A stretch of DNA of 16,366 nucleotides, from positions 449 through 16,814 of the forward strand of contig DBBN01000088.1 in the NCBI GenBank assembly GCA_002292215.1, written 5' to 3'. The DNA comes from Glaciecola sp. UBA983 (GTDB lineage Bacteria > Pseudomonadota > Gammaproteobacteria > Enterobacterales > Alteromonadaceae). Shown here one piece after another: positions 3,066-10,651 of the stretch. Under the pieces are notes generated by a model. It made no database searches. It saw only the letters and a list, made by a program, of their open reading frames with translations, and was not told the origin of the DNA. A program made the position numbers and the translations under genes. Numbering within the stretch: position 1 is the stretch's first letter; every line of letters begins with the position of its first letter.

Positions 3066-4061
3066 ATGAAAGAATTTTCAATCATTGAAAAATACTTTAC
3101 TTCTCAGTCACAACCACGCCAAGATGTTATTATTGGTGTCGGTGATGATTGTGCCATTACTAAAGTACCGGCCAATCAAGCATTAGCAACGACGACTGAT
3201 ACCTTAGTCAGTGGGGTGCATTTCTTGCCTGACACTGCACCTAGTGATATTGCCCACAAAGCGTTAGCGGTCAATTTAAGTGATTTAGCTGCCGTGGGCG
3301 CTGTCCCTGCATGGATCAGTTTAGCCATCTCATTGGAGCGCACGGATGAAGATTGGCTTGATGAGTTTTCTGATACCTTGGCACGTTTATGTGAATACTA
3401 CTCTATCAATCTTATTGGTGGCGATACGACACGCGGTCCGTTAAGTATTACGATTACGGCGCAAGGCTTCGTCCCGCCTGAAAGTATTGCTACGCGCAGT
3501 GGGGCAAAACCGGGTGATTTATTGTATGTTACTGGCACATTAGGTGATGCAGGTGCTGGGCTAGATATCTTGTTAGGTAAGCTCGATTGTTCGACATTAA
3601 CAACTCTCAATTCGCAACAGCAAGACACCATTGCAAGTTACTTGACAGAGCGCCATTATAAACCGACTCCTCGGGTGTTAGCGGGGACGGCGTTACGTCG
3701 TATGATTTCAAGTTGTATTGATTTATCAGACGGCTTGCTTGGCGATATTCAACATATTATGCGGGCATCAAAGTGTGGCGCACACATCAACGTCGAAAGT
3801 TTACCTATTTCTCCAGCATTAGCGGCATTAGTCCCTGCCGAACAAGCATTTGACTATGCCTTATCTGCTGGTGATGATTACGAGTTATGTTTTTCTTTAC
3901 CCCAAAAAAATACGTCTGAATTAGAATTGGCGCTCAATGCTGCTAATGTTAATTTTACCTGTATAGGGCAAATCGTCGGTGGTAACATGCTCATTTTAAC
4001 GCATAACGGTCATCCCTATCAGCCTGCTGGGCATTCATTTGAACATCAGTTTGATAGTTAA
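3066..4061 (+). CDS. thiL: Thiamine-monophosphate kinase
   Basis: ATP-dependent kinase that converts thiamine monophosphate to the cofactor thiamine diphosphate. It is a member of the PurM/AIR-synthase superfamily. The 331 aa protein has all the family blocks: GVGDDCA (24-30), TTDTLVSGVHF (43-53), NLSDLAAVGAVPAW (70-83), IGGDTTRG (117-124), DLSDGLLGD (219-227) and SAGDDYELCF (267-276). The acidic residues that hold magnesium and both phosphates sit in these motifs. It begins 29 bases after nusB. I see no clear Shine-Dalgarno before its ATG, which suggests coupling to nusB translation or modest expression. The product supplies the cofactor used by Dxs, encoded nearby on the other strand. Confidence 0.95.
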   Translation: MKEFSIIEKYFTSQSQPRQDVIIGVGDDCAITKVPANQALATTTDTLVSGVHFLPDTAPSDIAHKALAVNLSDLAAVGAVPAWISLAISLERTDEDWLDEFSDTLARLCEYYSINLIGGDTTRGPLSITITAQGFVPPESIATRSGAKPGDLLYVTGTLGDAGAGLDILLGKLDCSTLTTLNSQQQDTIASYLTERHYKPTPRVLAGTALRRMISSCIDLSDGLLGDIQHIMRASKCGAHINVESLPISPALAALVPAEQAFDYALSAGDDYELCFSLPQKNTSELELALNAANVNFTCIGQIVGGNMLILTHNGHPYQPAGHSFEHQFDS

Positions 4062-4599: not shown

Positions 4600-6492
4600 T
4601 TAAGCTCTATTCAAACGTTGTTGCACTTGTTCGACAATCCCTGCAGCATCAATCTTTAACAGCGTATACATTTGAGATTGGGTAGCCTGCATGATAAATT
4701 CATCAGGCAAACCGCACTGTAGCAATTGAGTTAACAACCCTTCAGCTAAAATGAATTCGCCCACTTCGCTTCCTGCACCGCCTTTAATTGCGCCATCTTC
4801 TAAGGTCACTAATAAGTCATGTTCTTGTGCAGCAGCTATGATGGCTTGGGTATCAAGAGGTTTTACAAAGCGCATATCAATTAATGTTGCATTTAACGTT
4901 TGTGCTGCTTTTCTTGCTTCTGGTAGCAATGTGCCAAAGTTTAAAATCGCAACCCGTTGTCCACAAATATCAGGGGTAGGTTGGATCTCACGCAAAGTAC
5001 GTGATTTACCTATTTCAAGTGCAGTCATGTTTTCATCAATCGGCGCATCTTCACCACCACCACGCGGATAACGTACCGCAGCGGGTTGTTGTAATTGATG
5101 TCCAGTGTAGAGCATTTGGCGACATTCATTTTCATCGCCTGGGGTCATGATCACTAAATTAGGAATACAGCGTAAAAAACTGATATCAAATGCACCTTGA
5201 TGGGTTGGCCCATCTGCACCGACAATACCAGCGCGATCGATAGCAAATAACACCGGTAAATTTTGAATAGCAACATCATGAATCAATTGATCGTAAGCAC
5301 GTTGCAAAAACGTAGAGTAAATAGCAACTACTGGATGCAACCCGCGGATCGCCATACCAGCAGCTAATGTCACCGCATGCTGTTCGGCAATAGCAACATC
5401 AAAATATTGTTCTGGGTATTGTTTAGAAAACGCCACCATACCAGAACCTTCGCGCATCGCTGGCGTAACAGCCATAAGCTTAGGATCAACCGCCGCCATA
5501 TCACACAACCACTGACCAAAAATAGCAGAGTAAGTAGGTGAGGTAGGCACAGATTTAGGTAAGCGTTCATCTTCCGGGTTAAACTTAGGTACAGCATGAA
5601 ATTTAATCGGATCTTTTTCGGCTACATCATATCCTTTGCCTTTTTTGGTCACGACATGCAGTATTTGAGGACCGGAGATATTACGCATGTTTTTGAGTGT
5701 ATCGACCATGCCACTTACATCGTGTCCATCAATGGGACCGATATAATTAAATCCCAATTCTTCAAATATCGTACCCGGGACCACCATCCCTTTGATATGT
5801 TCTTCGGCTTTTGAAGCAAATTCTTTTAAAGGTGGGACGTTAGAGAGGACTTTTTTGCTCCCGTCACGAATAGTGTTGAAAAAGCTACCTGTTAATAAGC
5901 GGGCTAAATGTGAATTTAATGCACCCACATTTTCAGAAATTGACATTTCATTGTCATTTAATATAACCAACATATCTTTGGCAATATCGCCGCCATGATT
6001 GAGCGCTTCAAAGGCTAAACCTGCGGTTAAAGCACCATCACCAATGACGGCAACGGTTTTTCGGTTCTGACCCTCTTTATCAGCTGCAATAGCCATACCG
6101 ACAGCTGCACTGATTGAAGTAGATGAGTGACCGACTGCAAAGGTGTCATACTGGCTTTCTGGAGGCCACGGAAAAGGATGTAACCCGCCTTGTTGACGAA
6201 TAGTCGTCATACGCTCACGGCGACCTGTTAAAATTTTATGAGGATAAGCTTGATGACCTACATCCCAAATCAACTGGTCAAACGGGGTGTTATATACATA
6301 GTGTAATGCGACCGTCAGCTCGACAGTTCCTAACCCAGATGCAAAATGCCCACTAGATTTGCTCACACTTGACAACAAAAACTGTCTCAGTTCAGTGGCG
6401 ACTTGCGCCAATTTATCTTTAGGAAGCGTCCGTAATTCCTCAGGTGTGTTGGCCAAAGCCAGAGTAGGGTAATGTGCAAGATCCAATGACAT
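4600..6492 (-). CDS. dxs: 1-deoxy-D-xylulose-5-phosphate synthase
   Basis: Thiamine-diphosphate enzyme that condenses pyruvate and glyceraldehyde 3-phosphate, the entry step of the MEP isoprenoid pathway; its product also feeds thiamine and pyridoxal synthesis. At 630 aa it is close to the usual length. Order along the chain: [17 protein letters not shown] (48-64), [11 protein letters not shown] (76-86), GHSSTS (121-126), thiamine/magnesium motif GDGALTAG (151-158) with NDN (179-181), catalytic Glu370 in AEQHAV (369-374), [12 protein letters not shown] (425-436) containing His431, and the transketolase C-terminal domain (about 495-625). Numbering matches E. coli Dxs at Glu370 and His431. It starts 22 bases after ispA in the same operon, with only a weak Shine-Dalgarno. 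Firm call. Confidence 0.97.
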
Positions 6493-6514: not shown

Positions 6515-7399
6515 TTAGTAGCTACGCTGAACTAAAAATTCAGCAAACTCGTTTAGTAGAGTGGTATTGTAAGGTAATTGGTCCGATGATTGAAGTGATT
6601 CTGCGTATAACTGGGCTAAATAATCTTGTGATGCTTGTAAACCTAATAAAGCTGGAAAGGTAGACTTATTGAGCTCTTGGTCTGAACCACTCGGTTTACC
6701 AAGGGTTAGGCTATCACTGGTCACATCCAAAATATCATCGAGTACTTGAAACGCCAAGCCTAAATTACGACTAAAAGTTTGTAAGTGCGCAATGTCTGCC
6801 AGATCTAAATCTGACGTTAATGCAATCACCATACCCACACATGCACTGAGTAATGCACCCGTTTTGAGTGCATGTAATTGCGTTAAGGTATTAATATCAA
6901 TCGCGGTGTCAGTGAAATGCAAATCAATAGCTTGGCCACCGCACATGCCATCATAGCCTGCAGCTTTAGCTAACACAGAAATCACTGCTACTTTTTCACG
7001 ATCAGTCAGTGTAGGCGAGTTGGCAATATGTTCAAATGCTAATGATTGCAGTGCATCACCCACTAAAATTGCTGTGCCAGGGCTAAACTGAATATGGCAA
7101 GTTGGCTGACCACGACGTAAATCATCATTATCCATATCGGGCAGGTCATCATGAACAAGCGAATACGCGTGAATACATTCAATGGCGACCATCAACGGCG
7201 CCAGCTTGTTAGCATCTATCGCAAGCGTTTCGCCAAGGATAGCAATAAATAATGGTCTCACTCGTTTACCTTGACCGAGCAAGGCATATCCCATTGCTGG
7301 TAATAGATCACAAGGTAGCGACGGATAATGGGCTAATGCTTGAGTTAACAGCTGATTAGTGTGCTCAATGGTTTGAGTATGGCGGTGTTTAAAACTCAT
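6515..7399 (-). CDS. ispA: Farnesyl diphosphate synthase (geranyltranstransferase)
   Basis: Trans-prenyltransferase that joins isopentenyl diphosphate to dimethylallyl and geranyl diphosphate, yielding farnesyl diphosphate for quinones and undecaprenyl carriers. From the ATG at 7399 it is 294 aa. An upstream in-frame ATG at 7417 would give 300 aa and a longer overlap with xseB; the shorter form puts the GKRVRP substrate motif at the same distance from Met (Lys45) as in E. coli IspA. The first aspartate-rich motif [14 protein letters not shown] starts at about residue 84, the second, [13 protein letters not shown], has its DDILD at about 221-225, and [10 protein letters not shown] follows. The gene start overlaps the end of xseB, and dxs follows 22 bases later: the classic xseB-ispA-dxs operon. 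Confidence 0.95.
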
Positions 7400-7652
7400 A
7401 ATCCGAATCAGACTCATCCGTTGTTAACACTTCTAATGTTGCATTATCTTTGGCTAAGACGCTAACCTGTTGCTCTGCGTCTTTTAAATAACGCTGACAT
7501 GAACGGGCTAATGTAATGCCTTCTTGAAATTTACCTAAAGCCACATCTAGCGGTAATTCACCACGTTCCATTTCTTGAACGACAAGTTCAAGTTGTTGCA
7601 TCGCTTGTTCAAAATTCGGTTGTTGTTTTTCAGTCGCGCTATCGTGTGCCAT
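7389..7652 (-). CDS. xseB: Exodeoxyribonuclease VII small subunit
   Basis: Small helical subunit that binds XseA to form exonuclease VII, a metal-independent single-strand DNA exonuclease. The 87 aa chain has the family core FEQAMQQLELVVQEMERG (about 14-31), ELPLDVALGKFQEGITLARSC as the second helix, and a final helical stretch ending in acidic residues. A polar N-terminal tail rich in Ser, Thr, Glu and Gln precedes the core. It is the first gene of the xseB-ispA-dxs operon and overlaps the ispA start. The large subunit gene xseA is not in the window, as is usual. Confidence 0.92.
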   Translation of the reverse strand: MAHDSATEKQQPNFEQAMQQLELVVQEMERGELPLDVALGKFQEGITLARSCQRYLKDAEQQVSVLAKDNATLEVLTTDESDSDYEF

Positions 7653-7765
7653 GTCTCATCCACTTTTTGTAAGATTCATAGGATATTAACTATAGATAAT
7701 ATCGTAAATGTCGATAAAAAGCATAGTAATCTTATTCTGCTATTCACACCATAAGAGGGTTTTCA
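7653..7765. promoter_or_regulatory. Divergent control region between xseB and pomA
   Basis: This 113-base AT-rich gap must hold the promoters of the xseB operon (leftward) and pomAB (rightward). On the plus strand TTGTAA followed 18 bases later by TATAGA is a weak sigma-70-like candidate for pomA. No FliA (sigma-28) consensus is visible. On the minus strand AT-rich hexamers such as TATTAT are present but no clear -35. The pomA start has a good AGAGGG Shine-Dalgarno at 7754-7759, six bases before the ATG. Confidence 0.35.
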
Positions 7766-8458
7766 ATGGATTTAGCTACGATAGTCGGCATGATTGGCGC
7801 GATTGGCTTTAATGTCATGGCGATGGTCCAAGGCGGCGACATTGGTATGTTTATCAACGTACCATCTATCTTAATTGTATTTTGTGGTTCATTGTTTGTG
7901 GTGTTGTCGCAGTTTTCATTGGGGCAGTTTTTGGGTGCAGGCAAAATTGCAGCTAAGGCGTTCATGTTTAAAATTGAAGCACCTGAAGCACTGATCCATA
8001 AAGTCGTTGAAATGGCTGATGCTGCTCGAAAAGGAGGTTTTTTGGCATTGGAAGAAGCGCAAATTGATAACCCTTTCATGCAAAAAGGGGTAGATATGCT
8101 GGTTGATGGGCATGATGTTGAAGTGGTACGAGAAACTTTATCCAAAGATATTTCGATGACGACCCAGCGCCATGAATTCGGTGCGTCGATTTTTAAATCA
8201 CTGGGCGATATTGCACCAGCAATGGCGGTTGCATTATTAACTACCTTATATGGCGCATTTTTAGCGAATATCATCTGTTTGCCCATTTCGGCTAAATTAA
8301 ATGTGCGCTCACAAGAAGAAAAAGTCAATCAGTCACTTGTGCTCGATGGGATTTTAGGGATTGCCGATGGACAAAATCCGCGGGTCATCGACGGGATATT
8401 AAAATCCTATTTAGCAGAATCTAAACGCGCCAATGAAGCAAAAGAAGCAGAAGAATAA
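7766..8458 (+). CDS. pomA: Flagellar motor stator PomA (MotA family) with an internal in-frame deletion
   Basis: PomA forms, with PomB, the sodium-driven stator of the polar flagellum in the inner membrane. At 230 aa this protein is short (Vibrio PomA is 253). Residues 1-153 align without gaps to the recalled Vibrio sequence: two N-terminal membrane helices (about 5-23 and 29-50), the cytoplasmic loop with VEMADAARKGGFLALEE, and GDIAPAM with Asp148 in place. Then AVALLTTLYGAFLANI follows at once. In Vibrio the segment 154-179, between two PAM tripeptides, lies here: third membrane helix with Thr158, periplasmic loop and the second PAM. It is absent, yet the frame continues through the family C-terminal part NPRVIDGILKSYL. 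The reading frame is open, but a working stator is doubtful. The stop overlaps the pomB start (TAATG). Family certain; function uncertain. Confidence 0.92.
   Translation: MDLATIVGMIGAIGFNVMAMVQGGDIGMFINVPSILIVFCGSLFVVLSQFSLGQFLGAGKIAAKAFMFKIEAPEALIHKVVEMADAARKGGFLALEEAQIDNPFMQKGVDMLVDGHDVEVVRETLSKDISMTTQRHEFGASIFKSLGDIAPAMAVALLTTLYGAFLANIICLPISAKLNVRSQEEKVNQSLVLDGILGIADGQNPRVIDGILKSYLAESKRANEAKEAEE
8213..8227 (+). other. Inferred deletion junction inside pomA
   Basis: The sequence GCACCAGCAATGGCG encodes APAMA (codons 150-154). In intact PomA a PAM tripeptide occurs twice, at 151-153 and 177-179 in Vibrio numbering, so the parent gene probably had two near-identical copies of CCAGCAATGG about 78 bases apart. 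Only one copy remains. This is what slippage or recombination between short direct repeats would leave. The lost copy cannot be seen, so this is an inference from protein comparison. Confidence 0.7.
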
Positions 8459-9384
8459 TGGCTGACGAATGCCCTAAATGCCCACCAGAAGGACTGCCCC
8501 CGTGGATGGGGACATTTGCTGATTTAATGTCTTTGTTAATGTGCTTTTTTGTTCTGTTATTGTCATTTTCTGAAATGGATGTACTGAAATTTAAGCAAAT
8601 TGCAGGCTCAATGAAGTTTGCGTTTGGGGTACAAAGCAAGCTTGAAGTTAAAGATATTCCCAAAGGGACAAGTGTCATTGCTATGGAGTTCTCTCCGGGT
8701 AAGCCACAACCGACGCCAATAGAAACCATTCAACAAGTCACGACTGAAGTGACTCGCCAAGAACTTGAGTTTCAAGATGGTGAAAGTGCGCATGCTGGCG
8801 GTAAACAACGCCAGCAAGGTGAACAAAGTGGCGGGCAGGCAACGTCTACTTCAGTCAATATGGCATCAGCGTCGGATGCCTCTGATTCGGCAAATAAAGA
8901 CAATATTGCTGAGCAGTTGAAGAAAATAGCTGAAAAAATGGAACAAGAGATCCGAGATGGCGCGATAGAACTAGAATCATTGGGACAACAGATTACTATC
9001 CGGATCCGTGAAAATGGGTCATTTGCTGCGGGTTCGGCATTTTTACAGCCACAATTTGTACCTGTCGTGATCAAAATCGGCACAGCGCTATCGGATATCC
9101 CAGGTGAGATTGAAGTCTCTGGTCACAGTGATATTTCTAATATCGCAAATAAGTTGTATCGGTCTAACTGGGATTTATCTTCTCAACGTGCGGTGGCGGT
9201 CGGTGAACAACTGGTGCAAGCTCCTAATTTTGATGCTAGTCGCATGATTGTGGTGGGGATGTCGAATAATCGGTTGTTAACTGAAGAGCTCACAGCGCAA
9301 GCGCAAGCTCGTAATCGCCGAGTTGAGATCATGATTAATCAGGGCAGACCTAAATACAGTGATCCCATCTCGGTGACGCAGTAG
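8458..9384 (+). CDS. pomB: Flagellar motor stator PomB (MotB family)
   Basis: Ion-channel and peptidoglycan-anchoring subunit of the sodium stator. The 308 aa protein has a short cytoplasmic N terminus, one membrane helix (about 19-38) with the ion-binding Asp22 in TFADLMSLL (Asp24 in Vibrio), then the plug region starting EMDVLKFKQIAG, a low-complexity Gln/Ser-rich linker (about 110-150), and a C-terminal OmpA-like domain (about 176-296). The helix and plug are nearly identical to Vibrio PomB as recalled. The OmpA domain keeps LYRSNWDLSSQRAV and RNRRVEI, but the peptidoglycan motif reads GHSDI where Vibrio has GHTDN. The ATG overlaps the pomA stop, so translation is coupled. It converges on cfa with ten bases between. 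Confidence 0.94.
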   Translation: MADECPKCPPEGLPPWMGTFADLMSLLMCFFVLLLSFSEMDVLKFKQIAGSMKFAFGVQSKLEVKDIPKGTSVIAMEFSPGKPQPTPIETIQQVTTEVTRQELEFQDGESAHAGGKQRQQGEQSGGQATSTSVNMASASDASDSANKDNIAEQLKKIAEKMEQEIRDGAIELESLGQQITIRIRENGSFAAGSAFLQPQFVPVVIKIGTALSDIPGEIEVSGHSDISNIANKLYRSNWDLSSQRAVAVGEQLVQAPNFDASRMIVVGMSNNRLLTEELTAQAQARNRRVEIMINQGRPKYSDPISVTQ

Positions 9385-9394
9385 CGAGTAGCTG

Positions 9395-10651
9395 TTAGCG
9401 GAACGTCAACGCATCAGTATGCGCAGTTTTACCTAACACGAGCTGCACGGTAGAGATAGAGCGTTCTCTAAATCCGCCCTCACAATAGTTGAGGTAATAT
9501 TGCCACATTCTAGAAAAACGTTCATCGTAGCCTTTTTCGCGCAGTGATTCGATGTTCTCAAAGAAACGGTCATGCCAATGCGAAAGTGTTTGTGCGTAAT
9601 CTAAACCGATATCATGTAGGTCGCGAATACTTAAATCGGTGTATTCTTTAATACAACGGTTAATCATATACTGTGACGGTAAAAACCCACCAGGGAAGAT
9701 GTATTTTTGGATAAAATCCACGCCACTGCTGTAACTTTCATAACGACGGTCATCAATGGTGATAGCTTGTAATACCATGATGCCTTCCGGTTTCAATAAT
9801 GAAGTACACTTTTCAAAAAAGTTACGTAAATAGGATTTACCTACCGCTTCAATCATTTCGATGGAAACCAGTTTGTCGTATTCGCCTTCAAGCGTACGAT
9901 AATCTTGCTTGAGAAGAGTGATTTTGTCAGTCAAGCCTTCACGGGAAACCCAGTCTTCAGCCCATGCATATTGCTCATCAGAAATAGTCGTTGTGGTAAC
10001 ACGACAGCCGTAATGTTTAGCTGCATAAACCGCTAATCCACCCCAGCCGGTACCAATTTCCATTAAATGATCTGTGGGCTTGAGTTGCAACTTGTCACAA
10101 ATCGCTTTGAGTTTGTGTTGTTGCGCCTCGGCTAAATTTGCTTCTGGATGCGGGTAAACAGCAGATGAGTACATCATGCTTTCATCTAAAAACTGCGTGT
10201 ATAGTTGATTGCCTAAGTCATAATGCGCTTGGATGTTTTTGCGCGCTTGCTCAACCGAGTTACGATTTAAGAAATGTTGGATCTTGTTAAATGGATAAGT
10301 TAACCAACCAAAGCGTTTTTCCCATTTATCAAGTACAGGTAAGTTGCGAGCAAAAATACGGATCACGTTGGTTAGATTCGGTGATGTCCACAAACCATCC
10401 ATAAAAGTTTCACCGCTGGCAACACTGCCACCAAATAGCAAATGGCGATAGGCTTTAGGATCAAGGATATTGACCTCTGCTTGAAGTTCACTATTAAGAT
10501 CACCCATTTGTGCCACCATCACGCCGTGTTCTTTTAGAGTCATACAGCCTTGTGGTAAATGGTTTAGAACACTTATAAAGGCGCGTTTACACCATTTATC
10601 CATGAGCGAAGCGTTTTCTGTTTTTATTATAGTTTGTTGTGCTTGAGACAT
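9395..10651 (-). CDS. cfa: Cyclopropane-fatty-acyl-phospholipid synthase family SAM methyltransferase
   Basis: SAM-dependent enzyme that adds a one-carbon unit across the double bond of unsaturated acyl chains in membrane phospholipids. At 418 aa it has an N-terminal lipid-binding part, AHYDLGNQLY (142-151), DESMMYSSAVY (156-166), the SAM site LMEIGTGWGG (196-205), VSIEMIEAVG (262-271), QKYIFPGG, and YYLNYCEGGFRER near the C terminus with the conserved cysteine. Members of this family make either a cyclopropane or a methyl-branched alkene (UfaM in Rhodobacter furan-fatty-acid synthesis); the sequence alone does not settle which. It is the last gene of the operon, three bases after the DUF1365 gene. 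The operon promoter has a TGATCC element of the ECF sigma type. Confidence 0.93.
   Translation of the reverse strand: MSQAQQTIIKTENASLMDKWCKRAFISVLNHLPQGCMTLKEHGVMVAQMGDLNSELQAEVNILDPKAYRHLLFGGSVASGETFMDGLWTSPNLTNVIRIFARNLPVLDKWEKRFGWLTYPFNKIQHFLNRNSVEQARKNIQAHYDLGNQLYTQFLDESMMYSSAVYPHPEANLAEAQQHKLKAICDKLQLKPTDHLMEIGTGWGGLAVYAAKHYGCRVTTTTISDEQYAWAEDWVSREGLTDKITLLKQDYRTLEGEYDKLVSIEMIEAVGKSYLRNFFEKCTSLLKPEGIMVLQAITIDDRRYESYSSGVDFIQKYIFPGGFLPSQYMINRCIKEYTDLSIRDLHDIGLDYAQTLSHWHDRFFENIESLREKGYDERFSRMWQYYLNYCEGGFRERSISTVQLVLGKTAHTDALTFR

Follow-up and report, generated by a model that had tools for sequence, protein, structure and literature searches.

The pomA gene in the analysed window (a stretch of 16,366 nucleotides from Glaciecola sp. 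UBA983, G000:C95:449-16814, where G000 is the host assembly) has lost 26 codons in frame. We regard it as very probably a recently damaged remnant, representing early decay of a Na+ stator orphaned by flagellum loss. The evidence consists of the deletion itself, its recurrence in public contigs, the absence of three flagellar core families, a scar at the site of the flagellar cluster, and graded decay of the stator genes across the genus. The features of the site are:

7389-7652, minus strand: left neighbour, anchoring the syntenic site; presumably xseB
7710-7717, plus strand: GTCGATAA, a putative sigma-28 -10-like motif upstream of pomA, located by alignment
7766-8458, plus strand: pomA, an open ORF of 230 aa without 26 residues across most of TM3, and with I16N
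8216-8225, plus strand: deletion joint, with one CCAGCAATGG copy left, encoding PAM
8458-9384, plus strand: pomB, an intact ORF of 308 aa with PRK08944 and MotB_plug matches
9395-10651, minus strand: cyclopropane-fatty-acid synthase-like gene (cfa-like, PF02353), right neighbour, anchoring the syntenic site

The presumed xseB gene had no NCBIfam match at E 1e-20. PomB matches the MotB family PRK08944 with 443 bits, so an adjacent B subunit is present. The motif GTCGATAA, a putative sigma-28-like -10 element, also precedes pomA in G001, G002, G003 and G005, and thus in all five genomes of the genus with any pomA, the host assembly included.

A search of the host assembly with the 256-aa PomA P0004 matched residues 1-153 and 175-256 of that protein at 99% each. 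Aligned with P0004, the window PomA differs by 26 missing residues and I16N, and by nothing else. The lost block can be written as 151-176 or as 154-179, because Pro-Ala-Met is repeated. P0004 aligns with PDB 8bri without a gap over residues 1-251, so the numbering is that of Vibrio PomA. The first-pass annotation had claimed a precise in-frame loss of the third membrane helix with Thr158; the 26 residues are exact against P0004, although most of helix 3 is gone rather than all of it, and full-length relatives, to which it had proposed an alignment, match except for these residues and I16N. It had also placed the join at a single PAM and described frame, stop and pomB overlap as preserved, in agreement with the one CCAGCAATGG at the joint and with an open frame sharing a single base (8458) with pomB.

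According to the alignment, most of TM3 is missing, and with it Thr158, Gly154 and the glycine zipper G154-G161. In Vibrio PomA these residues lie at the path taken by Na+, and a Gly-to-Leu change in the zipper abolishes motility (PMC10374538). The PF01618 match of the window PomA is broken, covering positions 3-59 and 85-122 of the 127-position profile and leaving out 60-84, and hydropathy gives distinct helix 3 and helix 4 peaks for P0004 vs one merged region after helix 2 for the window protein. From these profiles the protein appears to depart from the four transmembrane helices of PomA/MotA, the start of TM3 being fused to TM4, and it would offer neither the Na+ ligand T158 nor the TM3 glycine zipper expected of such a subunit. 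No other copy of the lost segment was found in the host assembly when it was searched with P0004. The short PomA is not expected to serve as a functional stator subunit with four helices, and we infer a loss of function.

The family model NF006527 (PRK08990, PomA) gives the window protein 358.2 bits in two stretches, above its cut-off of 341, and P0004 447.5 bits in a single stretch. AlphaFold reached a mean pLDDT of 70.1 for the short form (five models, 70.1 to 41.1), with values below 50 at residues 26-29 and 153-160, and of 76.6 for P0004 (five models, 76.6 to 60.3). In a PDB structure search both forms match PomA first, the top match of the short form having a TM of 0.81 and an rmsd of 8.7, the top three of P0004 0.85-0.88 and 4.8-5.9. 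The model of the short PomA is too unsure to name a fold from it. The passing of the NCBI cut-off by the short protein and the first rank of PomA among the PDB matches of its best model speak against decay, as do the open frame and the intact pomB.

Ten genomes of the genus were compared, from the host (G000) to G009. An HMM search of these draft assemblies found no match for FlhA, flagellin or FliG_C in eight of the ten, G000 among them, and all three in G002 and G005. With these families unmatched, G000 is without the rotor and flagellum that belong to a working stator; the absence is one in draft assemblies, that of G000 being 96.7% complete and in 129 contigs. Among the explanations put forward earlier, a naturally non-swimming lineage is thereby supported. 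The deletion most likely follows flagellum loss rather than reflecting motor paralysis, because the flagellar core genes, whose absence the first-pass annotation had missed, are gone from the genome.

A second motA/pomA set, which had been named as something to look for, was not found in G000 by the MotA_ExbB profile or by P0004. The four other MotA_ExbB places of this assembly, considered as a second stator set and rejected, are TolQ and TonB-system-like proteins. One is TolQ (TIGR02796, 300.1 bits, cut-off 221), and three score below the cut-offs of the TolQ/ExbB models and have exbB-exbD-tonB-like surroundings; the latter are presumably of the TtpC type. They share the MotA_ExbB family with the window gene, which differs from them in being a PomA of the four-helix type that has been damaged. 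In viral contigs two stretches fit a pattern, and neither encoded a relative.

The former place of the cluster can be recognised between metA and purL. In G005 these genes are separated by about 58 kb holding FlhA, FliG and flagellins (by HMM; other gene names were read from the proteins). In G000 they lie 4.5 kb apart on the same contig, purL itself being split over two contigs, and enclose a Smr-domain gene, flgM (PF04316), a flrA/flhG remnant, fliA (PRK06986, 313.6 bits) and cheW (PF01584). The remnant starts like FlrA (PF06490, 25.9 bits) and ends like the ParA-type FlhG of G005. G001 and G003 have a similar scar on two contigs each, the flgM side of G003 falling inside the gap, and G006 and G008 retain the Smr-domain gene, fliA and cheW. 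The two flanking genes are far apart in G004 (one contig of 2,533,120 bases) and on different contigs in G007 and G009. Both flgM (3329-3646) and fliA (5017-5742) of G000 (G000:C70, L179) are still open, though no flagellum was detected in this genome.

The pomAB site shows the same loss in stages. Between xseB and cfa, full pomAB is found in the flagellated G002 and G005 and in the non-flagellated G001. Among the eight flagellum-less genomes the site is intact in one, has lost helix 3 in one (the window), carries a stop and large deletions in one, and holds no pomAB in five. The heavily damaged copy is that of G003, where pomA is marked by a duplication of 9 bases, a stop codon and a deletion across TM3-TM4, the pomA-pomB junction is lost, and only residues 87-247 of pomB are left. 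In G004, G006, G007, G008 and G009 both genes are gone and xseB adjoins cfa. Close relatives carry independent lesions at the same locus, which is the pattern of a pseudogene series. Lineage-specific amino-acid changes are few (G000: 3 in pomA, 4 in pomB; G001: 0 and 4). MotY is complete in G000, G001, G002 and G005 and interrupted in G003 by the end of a contig, and a search of the genus genomes did not find it in G004, G006, G007, G008 or G009. Chemoreceptor matches (PF00015) number 4 in G000 (one weak), 8 in G001, 12 in G002, 2 in G003, 6 in G005, 1 weak in G007, and 0 in the others; one match of G001 and one of G003 contain a stop.

Considering this series, a reversed order of events, in which the PomA deletion came first and paralysed the motor of a flagellated strain that lost its cluster later, is unlikely. 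Flagellum loss itself appears recent, and the deletion is known with both Ile16 and Asn16 (see below), so that it may not be very recent (or may have recurred), both of which would suit that order. However, the flagellum-less sister G001 has a full-length pomA and G003 has different lesions, from which it follows that cluster loss did not need the deletion of the window.

Selection was assessed as dN/dS with a simple Nei-Gojobori script, which is unreliable with dS near or above 1. Between G000 and G001, at a dS of about 1, omega is 0.013 for pomA and 0.019 for pomB, the lowest of 13 window genes; taken alone, this would suggest selection without a flagellum and counts against decay. The same comparison gives 0.036 for motY and 0.030 and 0.023 for two chemoreceptors, and relaxed values of 0.38 for flgM and 0.31 for fliA. 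For fliA, omega is 0.28-0.31 among G000, G001 and G003 vs 0.017-0.045 against the flagellated G005 and G002, and the gene seems to be under relaxed selection in the former three.

Between G000 and G001, dS is 0.09 for fliA and 0.21 for cheW, vs 0.73-1.03 for the adjoining purL, metA and metH; between G001 and G003, cheW has a dS of 0.018. The values for fliA and cheW are far below those of the flanks, which points to a recent exchange of scar DNA between lineages; homologous recombination seems to have carried the scar of flagellum-less genomes from one species to another. Positions 4905-6577 of C70 (L179), comprising the flrA/flhG end, fliA and cheW, are 92-95% identical between G000 and G001, and their flanks 84-88%. 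The flgM and flrA remnants of these two genomes are 75-76% identical (BLAST), which is more than neutral decay since their split would leave and points to a young loss, although the argument is rough and covers alignable parts only. Taken together, flagellum loss looks young relative to the split of G000 and G001. A single ancestral deletion was considered, but one simple scar is not supported, as the flrA/flhG joints differ among G000, G001 and G003, and only G001 and G003 have a deletion inside flrA in common. If the loss is young, the low omega of pomAB, motY and the two chemoreceptors would mostly record flagellated ancestry. Selection on an orphan PomAB, as read from the shared scar and low omega, was dropped as the main reading, since the dS of fliA and cheW, low beside that of the flanking genes, points to a recent exchange of the scar block and a recent loss.

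A role of PomAB independent of the flagellum (e.g. in Na+ flux or envelope sensing), with a three-helix PomA that is modified and still useful, would agree with the intact pomAB and motY of flagellum-less G001, with the very low omega of both genes, and with an open-frame deletion allele on many contigs. It is nevertheless quite improbable, because the low omega covers a divergence seemingly mostly older than flagellum loss, pomAB is absent from five other genomes without a flagellum, and the deletion removes Na+ ligands. That three-helix PomA and PomB persist as a retained complex without a flagellum (for instance as an envelope protein or a Na+ channel that does not rotate), the deletion allele being favoured, is highly improbable.

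The deletion is not limited to one assembly. A protein search with the window PomA gave 7,499 matches, of which the best 120 were considered. Among these 120, P0001, identical to the window PomA, is found on 41 contigs (the longest of 2,899,380 bases; sources may overlap), P0002, with the identical joint but Ile16, on 5, and P0003, with Asn16 and a different 26-residue loss of equal length, on 1; these three are the only 230-aa proteins among them. The full-length form of 256 aa is represented by nine proteins (P0004-P0012) with 99.2% identity or more to P0004; they occur on 115 contigs, so that within the best 120 matches deletion alleles on 47 contigs stand beside near-identical full-length alleles on 115. 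The P0003 joint may be a real allele or a chimera of alleles; if it is not an assembly chimera, losses at TM3 of PomA recur. That out-of-frame forms are missing among the listed matches has little meaning, because the length limits of the search would exclude copies that are frame-shifted or much shorter. For FliG, P0128 (assigned to Glaciecola sp. in one source) and proteins with 98.8% identity or more to it are on 122 contigs among the best 120 proteins, close to the 115 of full-length PomA. Judged by these contig counts, the group probably includes flagellated members as well.

Assembly error and laboratory passage, both raised by the first-pass annotation, are extremely unlikely sources of the deletion: the host assembly is a draft in 129 contigs and the P0003 joint, on one contig only, could be a chimera of alleles, but a joint that recurs at the protein level on 41 + 5 contigs, the longest of 2.9 Mb, is not a private assembly error (though the sources of these contigs may overlap), and ordinary assemblies are not collapsed by a repeat as short as 10 bases.

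A separate in-frame loss of 5 residues (49-53) is present in P0015, an otherwise full-length PomA of the group found on one contig; at that site (about 7913-7935) the window DNA has CAGTTTT repeated 15 bases apart.

As to the origin of the deletion, recombination between two PAM-coding repeats about 78 bases apart had been proposed. The spacing holds, two PAM motifs lying 78 bases apart in all 80 full-length relatives examined, which makes the proposal plausible. However, exact repeats at this distance are mostly short: the maximum is 4 bases in 37 of them, 5 in 15, 6 in 4, 7 in 16, 10 in 5 and 11 in 3. Of the 80 relatives, 52 thus have no more than 4-5 bases and 28 have 6-11, and this shortness in most relatives also counts against decay by slippage. 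The nearest relative G001 (L037) has an exact repeat of 7 bases. Slippage or recombination between PAM-coding repeats would be the simplest route, given a presumed parental repeat.

The closest known system is the polar Na+ stator PomA5PomB2 (PDB 8brd, 8bri, 8zyv). The order pomA-pomB is the same, P0004 matches 8bri with E 2.4e-108, and residues 1-153 and TM4 to the C-terminus of the window PomA align without further gaps. The window PomA differs by the absence of most of TM3, Thr158 and the glycine zipper, and FliG was not found in G000. Opacimonas immobilis LMIT016, of the same group, is described as non-flagellated, with a streamlined genome of 2.53 Mb and most flagellar and chemotaxis genes missing (PMC12844025); a term search of that paper gave no occurrence of "stator". 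In a genome survey, FliA, MotA and MotB were matched together in 20% of non-motile genomes, remnants were discussed, and stator matches in such genomes were expected to include non-flagellar homologues; single decay steps, as in the window, are not followed in the available portions of that text (PMC12199754). Judged by titles and abstract openings, no report of the pomA deletion allele was found in the literature. The literature already describes flagellum loss in this group, and the window is an instructive intermediate stage, not a new system.

Based on this dataset, we favour decay of an orphaned stator, with the flagellum lost first and helix 3 second. A lineage of Alteromonadaceae (Glaciecola/Opacimonas group) would first have lost its flagellar cluster, leaving the polar Na+-stator genes pomAB, located elsewhere between xseB and the cfa-like gene, with no rotor to act on. 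Once swimming had ceased to be selected, and under presumably relaxed selection, an in-frame deletion of 78 bases between two short Pro-Ala-Met direct repeats, most likely by replication slippage, could then have removed most of helix 3, including Thr158 and the glycine zipper, and become common. The pomAB pair would be heading to complete loss, as in sister species.

This suggests that dN/dS can stay low after a function has been lost, and automated annotation would still name the broken protein PomA. In this genus the successive steps by which a flagellum is discarded would be preserved in nature: the big cluster goes first, followed by scattered pomAB, motY and chemoreceptor genes, partly through small deletions.
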